NCBI GenBank assembly: GCA_009773005.1 | Contig: WOUT01000027.1 | Coordinates: 1-32,924, forward strand | Reading direction: 5' to 3' | Length of the DNA: 32,924 bases | Origin: Chloroflexota bacterium | GTDB lineage: Bacteria > Chloroflexota > Anaerolineae > Anaerolineales > Anaerolineaceae | In this document: positions 8,997 to 19,075 of the stretch, piece by piece | How the letters are laid out: each line of letters opens with the position of its first letter | Numbering within the stretch: position 1 is the first letter of the stretch | Translations under genes and position numbers: made by a program | Notes under the pieces: generated by a model | What the model was told of the DNA's origin: nothing | Seen by the model: only the letters and a program-made list of their open reading frames with translations | Database searches by the model: none

Positions 8997-9746
8997 ATGA
9001 ACTTTGCTGACCATGAAGAATTGGCTAAACGTCAAAAACGCAGGCTACGCCGCCGAAGAAATGATATGGTGTGGAATTTGCTCACAGGCAGTGTGCTGAT
9101 CGCCATGGTGGGTTTGATCAGCGTGATGCTCCTGGTGTTTTCCAACCCGCATATTGCGTTAAATCCTTTTCCGCCGCCGACCATGCCCGTTCTTGTGATC
9201 CTTCCAAGCCCAACGCCAACGCTGGTGGTGATGCCTGCCACCTGGACACCAACGCTGAGAGCTACCGAAACGCCGCCACCTATGCTGATTAGTGCCACCG
9301 CAGATCCAACCAATACAACCACAACCAGCGCTCTGCCTACCACAAACACGACAGAGAGCAGCGCTATCTATCCGTTTGTTCTGCAAGGCGCCCCCGCAGA
9401 GGTCAGAAGCGTGGTTTTCAGACCTGAAACCGGATGCGAATGGCAGGGAGTCGCAGGTCAGGTGGTTGACCTTCAAGGCAAACCGAAACTTCAAATCGCG
9501 GTTGCGTTGAAGGGTGTGTTCAATGGGAAAACCGTTGATATGAAAACAATTTCCGGCACTCATACAGTATACGGAGAGTCCGGCTATGAGTTCCAATTAA
9601 GCAATGTGCCGATCCAATCATCCGGGTCGTTATCAATTCAATTGATTGACCAATCCTTTCTGCCTTTATCAGACAAGGTAATCTTCAATACATATGCAAC
9701 CTGCGATAAAAACCTGATCTTGATCAATTTCAAACAGGTACAGTGA
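8997..9746 (+). CDS. Membrane-anchored protein of unknown function with a C-terminal beta-rich domain
   Basis: I do not recognise a named family. The 249-aa protein has a very basic N-terminus (KRQKRRLRRRRND), one transmembrane helix at about residues 25-47 and a long Thr/Pro linker (SPTPTLVV to TTNTTE). After it comes a compact domain of about 115 residues that looks all-beta, with two Cys (ETGCEWQG and YATCDKN) that could pair outside the membrane. The basic cluster before the helix predicts an N-in, C-out topology. CTGGAG upstream of the ATG serves as the ribosome binding site. It follows the parvulin lipoprotein by 36 bp and converges with the next gene. A surface role is inferred only from topology. 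Confidence 0.75.
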   Translation: MNFADHEELAKRQKRRLRRRRNDMVWNLLTGSVLIAMVGLISVMLLVFSNPHIALNPFPPPTMPVLVILPSPTPTLVVMPATWTPTLRATETPPPMLISATADPTNTTTTSALPTTNTTESSAIYPFVLQGAPAEVRSVVFRPETGCEWQGVAGQVVDLQGKPKLQIAVALKGVFNGKTVDMKTISGTHTVYGESGYEFQLSNVPIQSSGSLSIQLIDQSFLPLSDKVIFNTYATCDKNLILINFKQVQ

Positions 9747-9753
9747 GTTTCAA

Positions 9754-12003
9754 TTATAGAAACATCGAAAGTTGAGTGGCATCTTCCAGGCTGATCGGAT
9801 CTGAGTCAATAAACAGATCCCACAAGTCCAGAGAGATGTCTTTGCGTTGCGCCAGATCTCGCAAGGTGCGGTATTTAAGAAAATGCCAATGGGATGAGAC
9901 CAATTCGCGCAAATTGGGGTCACGGTCCAGTTTGAATCTCAGAAGCGCTGAACGGCTGCCGGGGAATACGAATACAGTTTCAACAGGTTCTGAATATTGC
10001 GGGCGGGCAAACCGGCTGACCAGCGCCGAGACAGAAAGGAAGATCTGATATCGAGGGAGTTCCAACCGGGCTTTGTTGAACCAGGAGATGGGGTTTTCTC
10101 CGTTGCACTCCAATCCAAATTTTTCTGCCATTGATCTGATAAACTCTTGAATTTCATCAAGATCTTTCTTCCGTTTTCCTGATAACTCGTTCTCTTTCAA
10201 ATTCCAAGTCTGGTCTTGCGGATCAAAGTCGGCATAGGAGTGAAGACAGAATTCCAGCAGATCATCGGGTGGAGTAGAGAAACCGGGGAATCGCTGAAGT
10301 ATTCGGTGGTGAATTTCTTGAGACGCAACCTTTTTTTCTTTTTGCAGCCAATTTATCAGTTCGGTTTCCACGCGATCTGCCAGAGAAACCTGGCAGCCTT
10401 CTGATTGGGTCAACCACCAAAAACCGCTTTCCAGATCTTGCGCGGTCGCGTCCAATCGGCGCAGGAATTTTCGATCAGAAAAAACCTTGGCAATCTCGGT
10501 TTGAATTTCAGCAGCTGTTTCAAAAGTCAATTGCTGGATGGTCTTTGGAAAGGCATTTTCCTGGGCGAGCGCTGTGATTACCCGAGTAAATAGTTTGAGG
10601 TAGCGGCACGGTTCACCGATATCAATTAAGAGATCATGAATCGATTCGCGAATGATTCTATGGAGGTTAACCTTTTTGATTTCATGGCTGGTCCGTTGCG
10701 TAAGCCACTCCAACTGAATCGGGTCTTCTTCATTTTTATATGCCCAGCCGGATAACGCCAAACCGCTCGCCACGGAGGCTTCAACAGCGGCCGCTACAAA
10801 ACCGGCGGTTGGTTCGGGCAGCAAACTAAAAACATATGTGTTCTCTTTAACCAGCCGGGCTGCCGGGGCAAGCACTGACTGCAGTGCATTGGCATGCCAG
10901 TACCAATCAAACCGCTGGCGCTCAAGCACATTCTTAAGACTGGCGGCATTTTCTTTTCCCCACAGCCAAGAAGACCACAGGGTTGAAAGCGTCCAGAAAG
11001 CCTGGTTGGGACGGGGCAGCACGCAAACAACGGTCTCCATCTGAATGGACGGTTTTTGCTGGAGGAAGTCCCGCATTCGTCCAGGGAAGAGACAGATCCC
11101 TGCGGATTCAGGAAGGTCAGGCCAGAGCTTGAGCGGGATGGGTTCAGGTTCAGAGGTCCATAAGTTCACAGCGTTTTCCAGCGCCATCCAGATATTCTTT
11201 TCCAGATATTCTGCCGGTGTGTTAAGCATGCGCGGTCGCTCATTTGTTTCAGTGGTCTGCCACAAGGAGTGACCGGCATCCAGCGTGGAGAGTAAAAGCG
11301 CATCGATCAGAGCGCGGCGTTGAGGATTCAGGGATAAACCTTCCACTTTATTGATCAAGGTGAACAAGGCATAAAGCGGCCTGGCAGCGTAGACCTTGAG
11401 CACTTCCTCCAGATGTTCCCGCGCTTCTTTTGTCCCGCCTGGCACTCTTTCAATCGCCCGGGCACGGTGCAAGGGGTCAGACCTTTGAACCACAGCGAGC
11501 CGTTCGATATCTTCCTCTGTGACCGGGTGTTCGCCAGCATCCCCGCAAGCCGGACAAGTGTAGTCCCGCGCAAAAGGGGCTGCCTCCGACTTGCGCCACA
11601 GAAAACCGGTTGCGGAGATTTCTTTGCCGCAGCTCGCGCAGCGGGTGAGATATAGGTTCAGGATGTGCGATTCCAGACGCTCATTCCCCCGTTTTTGAAC
11701 CGCCAACTCAGAGAGGACTGATCGAAATTCATCCTTCGAGGGGGAATGCGCCAGCATTGTTAACTCGAACGCGCTGACCGGATTGTTGATCGCGACTAAA
11801 ACCTTGTACCCGGCTTGGGCGATCTCAAGAATGGTTTTTGGGGATGCGCCGATCGGTTCCAACACCCATACGCCTGGCGAGTTATGCTGGTTTAACCACA
11901 TGCGTGCTACACCAGCAGAGTAAGGAGGCAGGAATCTCTCAAACGGGATTTCCTGAGCATCTCTTTCCGGTTCAAGATAGGGGAGTGGCGTCGCTTCATT
12001 CAT
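9754..12003 (-). CDS. Degenerate DNA-methyltransferase-like protein with a zinc ribbon
   Basis: The 749-aa protein has the order of parts of DUF1156-type adenine-specific DNA methylases. A motif-I-like segment VLEPIGASPKTILEIA (47-62) leads to NNPVSAF where active enzymes have a DxNPVA-like stretch. A zinc ribbon CASC...CPAC follows (Cys 122, 125, 150, 153), and then CVLPRPNQAFWTLSTLW (about 327-343) stands where a DPPY-type catalytic motif would be. Asp and Tyr of that motif are missing and the glycine-rich loop is altered, so methyl transfer is unlikely. The last 300 residues are not recognised. The start at 12003 is chosen because a promoter ends 7 nt before it. An ATG at 12081 with AGGTGAT upstream would add 26 residues and cannot be excluded. 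Confidence 0.7.
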   Translation of the reverse strand: MNEATPLPYLEPERDAQEIPFERFLPPYSAGVARMWLNQHNSPGVWVLEPIGASPKTILEIAQAGYKVLVAINNPVSAFELTMLAHSPSKDEFRSVLSELAVQKRGNERLESHILNLYLTRCASCGKEISATGFLWRKSEAAPFARDYTCPACGDAGEHPVTEEDIERLAVVQRSDPLHRARAIERVPGGTKEAREHLEEVLKVYAARPLYALFTLINKVEGLSLNPQRRALIDALLLSTLDAGHSLWQTTETNERPRMLNTPAEYLEKNIWMALENAVNLWTSEPEPIPLKLWPDLPESAGICLFPGRMRDFLQQKPSIQMETVVCVLPRPNQAFWTLSTLWSSWLWGKENAASLKNVLERQRFDWYWHANALQSVLAPAARLVKENTYVFSLLPEPTAGFVAAAVEASVASGLALSGWAYKNEEDPIQLEWLTQRTSHEIKKVNLHRIIRESIHDLLIDIGEPCRYLKLFTRVITALAQENAFPKTIQQLTFETAAEIQTEIAKVFSDRKFLRRLDATAQDLESGFWWLTQSEGCQVSLADRVETELINWLQKEKKVASQEIHHRILQRFPGFSTPPDDLLEFCLHSYADFDPQDQTWNLKENELSGKRKKDLDEIQEFIRSMAEKFGLECNGENPISWFNKARLELPRYQIFLSVSALVSRFARPQYSEPVETVFVFPGSRSALLRFKLDRDPNLRELVSSHWHFLKYRTLRDLAQRKDISLDLWDLFIDSDPISLEDATQLSMFL

Positions 12004-12010
12004 CCCCTTT

Positions 12011-12038
12011 ATGATATACGAAAACAGAGGCTTTTCAA
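12011..12038 (-). promoter_or_regulatory. Predicted promoter of the methylase-like gene
   Basis: Minus strand: TTGAAA (12038-12033), 16-nt spacer, TATCAT (12016-12011), then seven bases to the ATG at 12003. This predicts a leaderless transcript. Confidence 0.45.
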
Positions 12039-12067
12039 TCCCTTCAAACAAAATCCCTTCAAACAAA
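12038..12067. repeat. Two perfect tandem 15-bp repeats abutting a -35 box
   Basis: The unit ATCCCTTCAAACAAA is present twice, head to tail, at 12038-12052 and 12053-12067. The block touches the -35 hexamer of the methylase-like gene. If translation started at 12081 the repeat would encode a duplicated FEGI(L/E) pentapeptide. Confidence 0.85.
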
Positions 12068-12135
12068 AAAGTGATACTCATCAAGCATCACCTTTTGGTG
12101 TGAACGAAAAAGAATAGAAATTAGATAAACTCTTA

Positions 12136-16083: not shown

Positions 16084-16729
16084 CCCCGGCGATGGACTTG
16101 ATGCCATCGCGCATATCCACCATGGGGTCGTCCTCGATTGTTTTTACCACCATTGCCACAGTTAGCGCGTCTTGCGGGATGTCTGACTCAACGCTGACGG
16201 AGAGAACCTTCTTCTTCAAGCCTTTATACATGGCGAGCAAATCTTCCACAAGGTTGGGGTTGCTGCACGCGGTCACGGTGACTGTGATGGTCTCGTATGC
16301 GCGGATGAGCTTTTTCTCCAGCACATTGAGCAGCACCAGAATGATGAGCAGCATGCCAGTGGTGGCCATGCCGGCGAAGTAATGTCCGGCGCCAACCGCC
16401 AGACCCACGATGGCTATCGTCCACAAAGAAGTGGCTGTGGTGAGACCCTTGACACTGGTGCCGTAACGCAAAATGGCGCCCGCGCCCAGGAAACCGATGC
16501 CAGAAATGACCTGAGCTGCCAGCCGACCGGGGTCTCCATTGGGCACCATGGGCTGGAACTGCATGGCAATGTTGATCGAAATGGTCATGGCGAGGCATGA
16601 GCCAATAGCCAGAATGGTGTGCGTGCGCAGCCCGGCCGGCTGGTTTTGGCGTTCACGCTCATACCCCACGATCATGCCCAACAGGGCGGCCAAGCCGAGC
16701 CGCAGGACGATCTCGTAATCCGTGATCAT
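16061..16729 (-). CDS. MgtC/SapB-family membrane protein
   Basis: The 222-aa protein has an N-terminal membrane domain with about four helices and the family signatures GMIVGYERERQNQPAGLRTH, and GIGFLGAGAILRYGTSVKGLTTAT. The cytoplasmic C-terminal part (about 145-222: TITVTVTACSNPNLVEDLL ... GVTHYRLN) looks like an ACT-type domain. MgtC proteins are linked to low-Mg2+ survival and modulation of the F-ATPase or Mg2+ handling; the role here is not known. Its ATG overlaps the stop codon of the ThyX-like gene (ATGA), so it is the last gene of the ribF unit. Its stop codon lies within the stub of the truncated HEPN gene. Confidence 0.92.
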   Translation of the reverse strand: MITDYEIVLRLGLAALLGMIVGYERERQNQPAGLRTHTILAIGSCLAMTISINIAMQFQPMVPNGDPGRLAAQVISGIGFLGAGAILRYGTSVKGLTTATSLWTIAIVGLAVGAGHYFAGMATTGMLLIILVLLNVLEKKLIRAYETITVTVTACSNPNLVEDLLAMYKGLKKKVLSVSVESDIPQDALTVAMVVKTIEDDPMVDMRDGIKSIAGVTHYRLN

Positions 16730-18156
16730 ATTTTCCTCATTTCTGTGTAACTGAAGTATTTCTCTATAATAGAAGCGGCGCTTTCATCAGCGCATCGTAC
16801 CAGGTAATGTCCGAAAACGGGTAGCACCTTGCAGAGCTCATCCGCCATGCGCTGCGCCAGCCGTCTGACCGAAAAATGGGCGTTGGGCGCCGAGCGTAAG
16901 CTGATGAAATGGATCAGGCTGCGCAGGTTGCTGGTGATAAGGAAGCGCCGGTTGAAAGCGTTCGGCACAGCGTAAGAAGCCGCAGCGGGGAAGTCCGCTT
17001 TCATCTTTGTGGATAGCTCGGAGGCGCGTTCCATGGCGTATTGAAAGGGCGTTTCCATACCGGCGGCAGTGACGGCTTTGGGGAGGGCGTAGCCCAGGTC
17101 TATGGTGAGCGGCTGGGGGGTGAGGGTCAGCATGCGGTGGCGTTTGACCTCGTAGTAAGCACCCTGGTCGAGCGCAATGTCAAAGGTGAAAGTGGTGTGT
17201 TCCAGTTCGCGCAGCGGCGCGGTGTAACGCTCACGCTCCGCCAGAATGTTTTTCGCGAGGGACCCGCGCTGGTCATCGTTGGCTTGGGTGACCCATTGAT
17301 ACGCTTGCGTGTAGTCAATTTTCTGGAAACGGTAGAGCACAGCCGCCAGCACCCGGCTTTCAGCGTCAGTATCGTAGTGGACGAGATTGCACCAATCCGG
17401 TGAAGAATTGTCATTGGGAATCGTGATTTTGGAGAGAGTGCTTTCCGCATGTTTCAAATAGGCGTTTTCCTGGGCGTACTTCATCAGGGTGGGAACGGAA
17501 CTGACCGCGATCTCTTTTATGGATACTCCCATGCGCTGCACTTCCAGTAAAGGCGAGGAAAGCATCTTGCTGATGGCGTGTTCGAGTGCGCGCGCGTTGA
17601 TGGTCACTCCAACATTGGCCAGCGAGGCAGCCGGCAGCACAAAGCGGCATACGTCAATGGTCATCGAGAGGGTGCGGCGTTTCCAGGCGTTCTCAGTCTC
17701 ATCCGCCAGACGCGGAGTATCCTTCTCGATCGCTTTCTTGACTTCAGGGATCAACTTTTCATAACATCCAAAAAGGGTATTACAGGTGAGTATATAATCT
17801 CCCCTCAAGGGATGGTTGAGCAGTTCATCCGGGGTGAGATACGCCGCGGCGTCCCAGGTCTGGTAGCGGGTGGATTTCTCTGTGTAAGAAGCCAGACGGT
17901 TCGACTCCAGGCACTCCACCGCCAGGCGCGACACATTTTCTACAGCGATGTGCAGAACTGCGTGTTCCGCCACCGAGGAGTGACCATAACCGACCACCCA
18001 TTTTTCATTGAACTCCGAGCTTTTCTGGTCGGTCAGCTCCGCGGCGATCTGGTCAAAGGATTCAGGTGAGCGGGAGGTCTTGGCAAAGGTCACCGCGATG
18101 GTTTCGGGCGGCAGCTTTTGCGGGTCAAGCAGATAGATGCGCGGTTCAGATTTCAT
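16726..18156 (-). CDS. Two-domain ThyX-like protein (FAD-dependent thymidylate synthase family)
   Basis: The 476-aa protein is about twice the length of a normal ThyX and consists of two ThyX-like domains. Domain 1 has GHSSVAEH (58-65), SYTEKSTRY (90-98) and NARALEHAIS (187-196). Domain 2 has KRHR (338-341) and NLRSLIHFISLR (410-421). Canonical ThyX carries RHR-x2-3-S-x-N-E-x-S-x-R in one piece; here domain 1 lacks the RHR (ESNR instead) and domain 2 lacks the Ser/Glu/Ser part. It either makes dTMP from dUMP with a split active site or has a new role. The start at 18156 has GAGAGG upstream and overlaps the ribF end by 11 bp. RibF would supply its FAD. An upstream start at 18204 lacks support. 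Confidence 0.85.
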   Translation of the reverse strand: MKSEPRIYLLDPQKLPPETIAVTFAKTSRSPESFDQIAAELTDQKSSEFNEKWVVGYGHSSVAEHAVLHIAVENVSRLAVECLESNRLASYTEKSTRYQTWDAAAYLTPDELLNHPLRGDYILTCNTLFGCYEKLIPEVKKAIEKDTPRLADETENAWKRRTLSMTIDVCRFVLPAASLANVGVTINARALEHAISKMLSSPLLEVQRMGVSIKEIAVSSVPTLMKYAQENAYLKHAESTLSKITIPNDNSSPDWCNLVHYDTDAESRVLAAVLYRFQKIDYTQAYQWVTQANDDQRGSLAKNILAERERYTAPLRELEHTTFTFDIALDQGAYYEVKRHRMLTLTPQPLTIDLGYALPKAVTAAGMETPFQYAMERASELSTKMKADFPAAASYAVPNAFNRRFLITSNLRSLIHFISLRSAPNAHFSVRRLAQRMADELCKVLPVFGHYLVRCADESAASIIEKYFSYTEMRKI

Positions 18157-19075
18157 TGTCAAAGACCTCTCGTGTTTTGGCGATATCCTTTTGAATTTGA
18201 GCAATCAGTTCCTGCGGGTGGTTGAACTTGATCTCAGGGCGCAAGAAGTCCATAAATTCCAGAGTTAGTTCCTGTCCATACAGATGTTCCTGCATATCCA
18301 GAATATGCGGTTCCACCCGCGGGACGAGCAAGGGGTTTTCAAACGTGGGTCTGACCCCGATGTTGGTGACAGATGAGTAGGCTTTTCCATTGACCAGCGC
18401 GCGGGTGATATAGACGCCGTTGGCAGGGATCAAACGTTCAGGAGGGAGGCTCAGGTTGGCGGTCGGAACGCCCAATTTGCCGCCGCGGTGCTCACCGTGC
18501 ACCACCTTGCCGCTGATGGCGTAAAGCCTGCCCAATTTCTGGCTGGCTTCGCGCACCCGGTTGTGACTCAAATCCGCGCGGATCTGACTGGAGGAGATCA
18601 TCCCTTCATTGGAAATAAACGGTTTCATTCGTTCAATTTCAAAACCAAGTTTTTTTCCTGATTCTTCCAGCAGATGAATACTGCCTGACCTTCCCTTCCC
18701 TAACGCAAAATTGGGTCCTACAAACAGTCGCTGCACATCAAATGTGTCTTTCAATTGCTGCATAAAAACTGCTGCTTCCAGGCCTGCCAGGGCTTGATCA
18801 AAAGTGAGCGTGAGGACTTCATCCACACCCAAGCCTTTGATTAATTCTTCTCTCTCATCCGGGCAGGTCAAGGCGTGGGCGAGCGGAGCCCGGTTGAAAA
18901 AAGTCGCAGGATGCGGCCAAAAAGTGATCACGATTGCCCGGCAACCGGAGTCATGCGCTTTTTGCACCAATTGACCGATCAAGAATTGGTGTCCGAGATG
19001 CACCCCATCAAAAGTACCGATGGTGATGCAGGATCGTTTGAAAGAAAGGGAGTCGATGGAAATCGTGAAGTTCAT
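18146..19075 (-). CDS. ribF: Bifunctional riboflavin kinase / FAD synthetase
   Basis: The 309-aa protein is a full-length RibF. The N-terminal nucleotidyltransferase domain has GTFDGVHLGH (20-29) with the HxGH motif, VGPNFALGKGR (119-129) and ISSSQIR (160-166). The C-terminal riboflavin kinase domain has GGKLGVPTANL (198-208) and the SVTNIGVRPTF stretch. It converts riboflavin to FMN and FAD in the cytoplasm. Its stop codon overlaps the ThyX-like start region, consistent with cofactor supply to a flavoenzyme. A TTGAGC-16-TATAAT promoter ends 6 nt before the ATG, so the mRNA is probably leaderless; no FMN riboswitch could fit in the space before it. Confidence 0.96.
   Translation of the reverse strand: MNFTISIDSLSFKRSCITIGTFDGVHLGHQFLIGQLVQKAHDSGCRAIVITFWPHPATFFNRAPLAHALTCPDEREELIKGLGVDEVLTLTFDQALAGLEAAVFMQQLKDTFDVQRLFVGPNFALGKGRSGSIHLLEESGKKLGFEIERMKPFISNEGMISSSQIRADLSHNRVREASQKLGRLYAISGKVVHGEHRGGKLGVPTANLSLPPERLIPANGVYITRALVNGKAYSSVTNIGVRPTFENPLLVPRVEPHILDMQEHLYGQELTLEFMDFLRPEIKFNHPQELIAQIQKDIAKTREVFDNEI

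Follow-up and report, generated by a model that had tools for sequence, protein, structure and literature searches.

The gene on the minus strand at positions 9754..12003 of the window (the whole 32,924-nucleotide stretch of Chloroflexota DNA analyzed here) probably encodes a chromosomal DNA-binding protein of Chloroflexota that comes from the PglXI/DUF1156 lineage of methylases, no longer catalyses methylation, and is tethered to the sliding clamp. Our computations establish the descent from a methylase, the fold, the conserved loss of the methylase motifs, purifying selection, and the conservation of a C-terminal tail. The substitutions at the former active site suggest that methylation is absent, and the further proposal that the protein reads bases and gives a signal is a guess made by analogy.

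The open reading frame is listed at 9754-12084 from a TTG codon; the ATG at position 12003 gives a protein of 749 aa plus stop, free of internal stops, and matches the start positions of the homologues. At its cut-off Pfam assigned no family to this protein, its NCBIfam matches fell far below their cut-offs, and PADLOC returned no match. A sub-threshold Pfam match to RecO_C (20.9 bits against a cut-off of 22.1) was confined to the cysteine region described below, and we rejected RecO membership on these grounds. A sequence search of solved structures gave nothing under E 0.06, and a literature search, whose coverage stops short of subscription journals and preprints, found no description of the protein family. 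Scanning GTDB genomes yielded 311 confirmed relatives, whose titles, as far as shown, are those of Anaerolineae and other Chloroflexota; the best 80 were retained. Carriers of the gene include the cultured relatives Longilinea, Ornatilinea, and Anaerolinea. Counts out of 80 given below refer to an alignment (A2) of the window protein with 79 of these best relatives, one locus cut by a contig end being omitted.

An AlphaFold2 model built with 80 sequences (pLDDT 92.5, pTM 0.90, with pLDDT below 50 only at residues 741-749) shows the fold of a SAM methyltransferase, interrupted by an insert with four cysteines, and after it winged-helix and alpha/beta parts. Residues 9-439, the methyltransferase-like Rossmann region (10687..11979, minus strand, as are all features of the protein below), were matched best by VIA-align 2 to TrmN (3tma; Z 13.4, rmsd 3.0, 174 residues aligned), so that the Rossmann-type methylase fold on which the original prediction depended is predicted. 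With the whole model, Foldseek found no PDB match under E 0.001 and, in a viral library, a Pandoravirus N4-cytosine methyltransferase (E 1.3e-5). Strands at residues 46-49 and 67-71 precede the insert and strands at 302-306 and 324-328 follow it, which places the zinc-ribbon-like C122xxC125 ... C150xxC153 (11545..11640) between strands 2 and 3. Each of the four cysteines is invariant (80/80), and strands are predicted within the insert. The order that had been read from the sequence, namely a motif I-like region, paired CxxC motifs, a motif IV-like region, and a helical region, is thus borne out by sequence and model.

Folded separately, the C-terminal 309 residues gave a pLDDT of 93.0, with values below 50 for residues 303-309 of that model. 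A winged helix at residues 539-604 (10192..10389) aligns with a cullin WHB domain (3dpl_C; VIA Z 8.9, rmsd 2.6, 66 residues aligned). It is preceded by a region of predicted H-H-H-E-E secondary structure (residues 447-531; 10411..10665) that Foldseek relates to a tandem winged helix (7asv, E 6.1e-4) and that is possibly a first winged helix. The C-terminal alpha/beta domain of the model at residues 608-733 (9805..10182) drew weak Foldseek rows to AF2093, YaeQ, Can2, and FokI. The fold rows to PD-(D/E)XK nucleases are weak, and the sole invariant acidic column past residue 605 (alignment A3) is D735.

Pairwise hhalign comparisons with active DPPY methylases gave E-values of 1.2e-8 (8 large proteins) and 9e-10 (3 small ones), and two distant homologues match PADLOC PglXI (1.3e-8 and 1.1e-9). 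The type-3 BREX proteins BrxXI/PglXI and the DUF1156 (BR-system) methylases, in the portion of the published account available to us (PMC12839542), share with the window protein a methylase Rossmann core, a large nested insert that separates strands 2 and 3 and carries a four-cysteine zinc finger, and HTH or winged-HTH domains after the core. Unlike the proteins described there, the window protein has no DPPY motif, no glycine loop, and no DUF1156 Pfam match; it adds the alpha/beta region and a clamp-like tail, and by Pfam and PADLOC in the window, and by eye at the homologue loci, we found no ATPase, helicase, or other defence gene beside it. The original prediction of a protein evolved from a DUF1156-type methylase is supported, with a correction. 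Descent from a methylase stands on both hhalign and the fold, whereas the Pfam DUF1156 domain is absent from the protein and has 0 matches in its own genome (G000), and because of this absence we place the protein beside, not inside, the DUF1156 family.

The motifs for SAM binding and catalysis are lost. At the motif I place the protein reads VLEPIGASPKT (residues 47-57; 11833..11865), as had been noted; active relatives have DPF.GGG here, and the glycine loop is gone. After strand 2, the sequence NNP (residues 73-75; 11779..11787) lacks the acidic residue of the D.NP found in active relatives; residues 72-75 read ANNP, VNNP, SNNP, or CNNP in 74 of the 80 aligned sequences and INNP in the window. 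The catalytic motif had been read as LPRP, but alignment with active relatives and with a homologue carrying DPPR puts VLPR (residues 328-331; 11011..11022) at the DPPY place, as do the hhalign comparisons, and the conserved block is PRPNQAFW. Every one of the 80 sequences has xxPR at this place and none has [DNS]PP[YFWH], so the loss of the catalytic motif is itself conserved. P330, R331, and W337 are invariant (80/80); in a 30-sequence set the counts are 30/30 for R331 and 29/30 for P330. Around them lies a conserved block rich in tryptophan and arginine, PRPNQAFW..L..LW..WLWG ... R.R.DW.W (residues 330-369; 10897..11016), in which W337, W343, W346, W348, W367, and W369 are each found in 80/80 sequences. 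Among ten segments of the protein that we compared, residues 325-375, around the old motif IV, are the most conserved, with 18 of 51 columns at 95% or more, and this conservation in the Anaerolineales set suggests a specific ligand there.

DPPY is also absent from all 19 more distant homologues, which come from the same order, class, and phylum; what stands in its place includes DPPR, SPPR, RPPY, SPPG, QPPL, and QAPV. The original prediction asked whether LPRP or DPPR is conserved: the PR pair is kept throughout the best relatives, and DPPR occurs in a single distant homologue only. Thirty of 31 DUF1156-matching or related active proteins carry a catalytic [DNS]PP[YFWH]. From these replacements we infer that catalysis has been lost.

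The tail, which the original prediction had not noted, is more informative. The protein ends in QLSMFL, within the stretch that the model leaves at low confidence, and QLSMF (residues 744-748; 9760..9774) is a candidate beta-clamp-binding motif. In the available portion of its description (PMC9690074), the bacterial motif is QL(S/D)LF at the C-terminus, and the proteins that bear it share with ours a terminal pentapeptide on a flexible tail; the window protein differs in that it carries its candidate motif on a methylase-derived fold with an apparently degenerate active site. Q744 is invariant (80/80), and the linker before it is variable. Within their last 8 residues, 75 of the 79 complete homologues among the best relatives have the strict motif, compared with 4 of 1,441 flanking frames of at least 150 aa, a rough background that includes spurious frames and is set against homologues that are not independent of one another. 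Sliding clamp genes (DnaN) are present in 21 of 21 genomes, and the clamp of the organism itself aligns over its length to solved clamps. The resemblance of the tail to known motifs suggests that it docks on the beta clamp, and the protein would then probably be held there.

The reading that we favor runs as follows. The ancestor of the protein would have been a DNA methylase in the PglXI/DUF1156 lineage. Of that enzyme the protein would retain what is expected to bind DNA, namely the methylase fold, the insert with its four cysteines, and the winged helix of the C-terminal part; the loop that binds SAM and the D and Y needed for catalysis would be gone. The surface of the old active site would have been rebuilt with the invariant P-R and tryptophans, and the flexible tail would probably hold the protein to the sliding clamp, either in the wake of the replication fork or where DNA is repaired; there it would bind DNA, and maybe read it, without modifying it. 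A flipped base could occupy the rebuilt pocket, as in the alkyltransferase-like proteins, relatives of a repair enzyme that, in the part of the account available (PMC10779285), lack the catalytic residue, bind DNA, and flip bases. The likeness is one of analogy only, the fold being unrelated. The fullest form of this idea, an inherited Chloroflexota surveillance protein that derives from a defence-type methylase, docks on the clamp, uses a base pocket lined with tryptophans to inspect DNA that is newly made or has been repaired, and flags a particular state of a base, we offer only tentatively.

The tail also bears on two alternatives. The protein may be a clamp-bound regulator that competes for the clamp or acts as a scaffold, with the methylase-like part serving only to position it on DNA and no base being read. 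The strict motif is kept in 12 of the 19 distant homologues (for example as QLSLF, QLPLF, QLGLF, and QLTMF), at most two residues from the end in 11 of them, despite widely differing methylase motifs, as this alternative would have it; four of the other seven have near misses (QIPLV, QLVFN, QLAFK, QLSFQ) and three have none. The conservation of the old active-site segment, with the specific ligand that it suggests, argues the other way, and we think it unlikely that the protein is such a regulator.

It is rather improbable that the tail, a Q-hydrophobic sequence, binds a partner other than the clamp, with the rest of our preferred reading unchanged. Residues 745 and 746 are each most often M among homologues, a pattern looser than QL[S/D]LF, and the relatives' MutS (12/12) and Pol IV (12 frames listed, two of them cut), which we had taken as positive controls, end without the motif, from which it follows that tail docking is not general in these organisms. 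The endings of the distant homologues listed above speak against a different partner, as do the uracil-DNA glycosylases (Pfam UDG) of two relatives, which end in QLSLF (locus L210, 1504-2148, minus strand; locus L237, 856-1515, plus strand). Searches with the tail as a DNA pattern in two genomes, G047 and G034, showed no enrichment over a reversed control (20 versus 22 and 25 versus 26 matches). Among these 45 matches, 30 have loci and six of those end a frame of at least 90 aa: the two UDG genes, the pseudo-methylase gene of G047, a GNAT-like frame, and frames of 203 and 93 aa.

Clamp docking may have come before catalysis was lost, because active DUF1156-related methylases often carry clamp-like tails. 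In the last 22 residues of 31 such proteins (loci L176-L186 and L189-L208), a loose Q..[hydrophobic][FLIM] pattern occurs in 16 (versus 37 of 1,441 flanking frames), and the strict form in 3 of those 16 (versus 15 of 1,441 flanking frames). If docking predates the loss, DUF1156 methylases may couple methylation to replication, a trait so far unrecognised in them. A methylase-family protein tethered to a sliding clamp has a parallel in Dnmt1 and PCNA, as the available portion of the source presents them (PMC9690074); unlike the pseudo-methylase, whose tether is predicted, Dnmt1 is active and eukaryotic.

We regard it as improbable that the protein is still an enzyme, with an altered catalytic site that acts on DNA or a different substrate by means of SAM or some other cofactor. 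The pocket region is strongly conserved, and two of the 19 distant homologues retain a canonical SAM loop (DPWAGTG or DPWSGTG) with an acidic residue after strand 2, both of which would suit an enzyme. Against it, the Anaerolineales set has neither the glycine loop nor the acidic residue, and other residues stand in for the D and Y of DPPY in the window protein and all 79 best relatives.

The gene is under purifying selection. In eight close homologue pairs dN/dS was 0.06-0.11 (0.064-0.108; synonymous sites were saturated in one pair), in agreement with the original view that selection maintains the intact 749-aa frame. That the gene is a decaying methylase or its motif loss an artefact of alignment can be dismissed as extremely improbable, since the known methylase motifs are indeed lost but dN/dS is about 0.08, the 53 matches listed from a search of 61 genomes contain no internal stop, the replacement of the motif is itself conserved, and an active motif at the DPPY place, which homologues of a decaying copy would be expected to retain, occurs neither in the 80 near sequences nor in the 19 distant ones.

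Pseudoenzymes are well known among kinases. If the reading that we favor is true, a pseudoenzyme derived from a DNA methylase and tagged for the replication clamp would connect genome maintenance with methylases of the defence type, and the series DPPR, SPPR, VLPR would provide a testable case in which catalysis was lost step by step with a docking tail gained or retained. A protein that belongs to no Pfam or NCBIfam family also becomes approachable through simple binding assays.

Conservation of the protein extends over much of an order, and homologues occur throughout the phylum. The 61-genome search found the gene in 49 genomes, its own included; 40 of the 61 were of good quality, and 32 of these have it. 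In 400 Chloroflexota genomes a profile search at E 0.001 matched 101, the weakest of which could be active methylases; among the 284 good-quality genomes 82 had a match. G031, a genome in one contig, lacks the gene, which is therefore not essential. A quick maximum-likelihood tree (56 rows) largely tracks genome taxonomy, as expected under vertical descent. None of 74 pattern-matching stretches in viral contigs encodes a relative, and tblastn gave no match at 1e-5 in plasmids or phages; we rejected a mobile origin on this basis. Locus L126 has a 1069-aa frame (minus strand) that is methylase-like, with DPFGGNGTT and EPPF, and forms a long branch beside the active relatives.

As originally noted, no restriction or phage genes adjoin the gene. 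Housekeeping genes lie around it in the window, and Pfam recognised FeoB, a DtxR-FeoA regulator, a GroEL-like protein, PPIase, TPR, NusA, IF-2, TruB, and ThyX, among others; PADLOC, run on the window proteins (10 + 2), gave a single match, GlgB, on an alpha-amylase. The window has no Rfam or tRNA features. Across 80 homologue loci and the window we found no constant partner gene and none that supports the favored reading, and an operon or partner was rejected because clusters of flanking frames reach at most 46 sources and vary by lineage. At the homologue loci, flanking proteins named from sequence by eye, not by family search, were a histidine kinase, SCP-like, glycosyltransferase, SSB, penicillin-binding, and TrpB-like proteins. 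SSB lies about 5-8 kb upstream of the gene in 24 loci, which we judged to be lineage synteny. Within the window, a 492-aa protein (16726-18204, minus strand) has two Thy1 (ThyX) stretches by Pfam and is apparently a duplicated or fused ThyX. The gene convergent with the pseudo-methylase gene (8997-9746, plus strand) encodes a 249-aa protein with no Pfam match, and its flanking-frame cluster comprises 11 sources, including the window.
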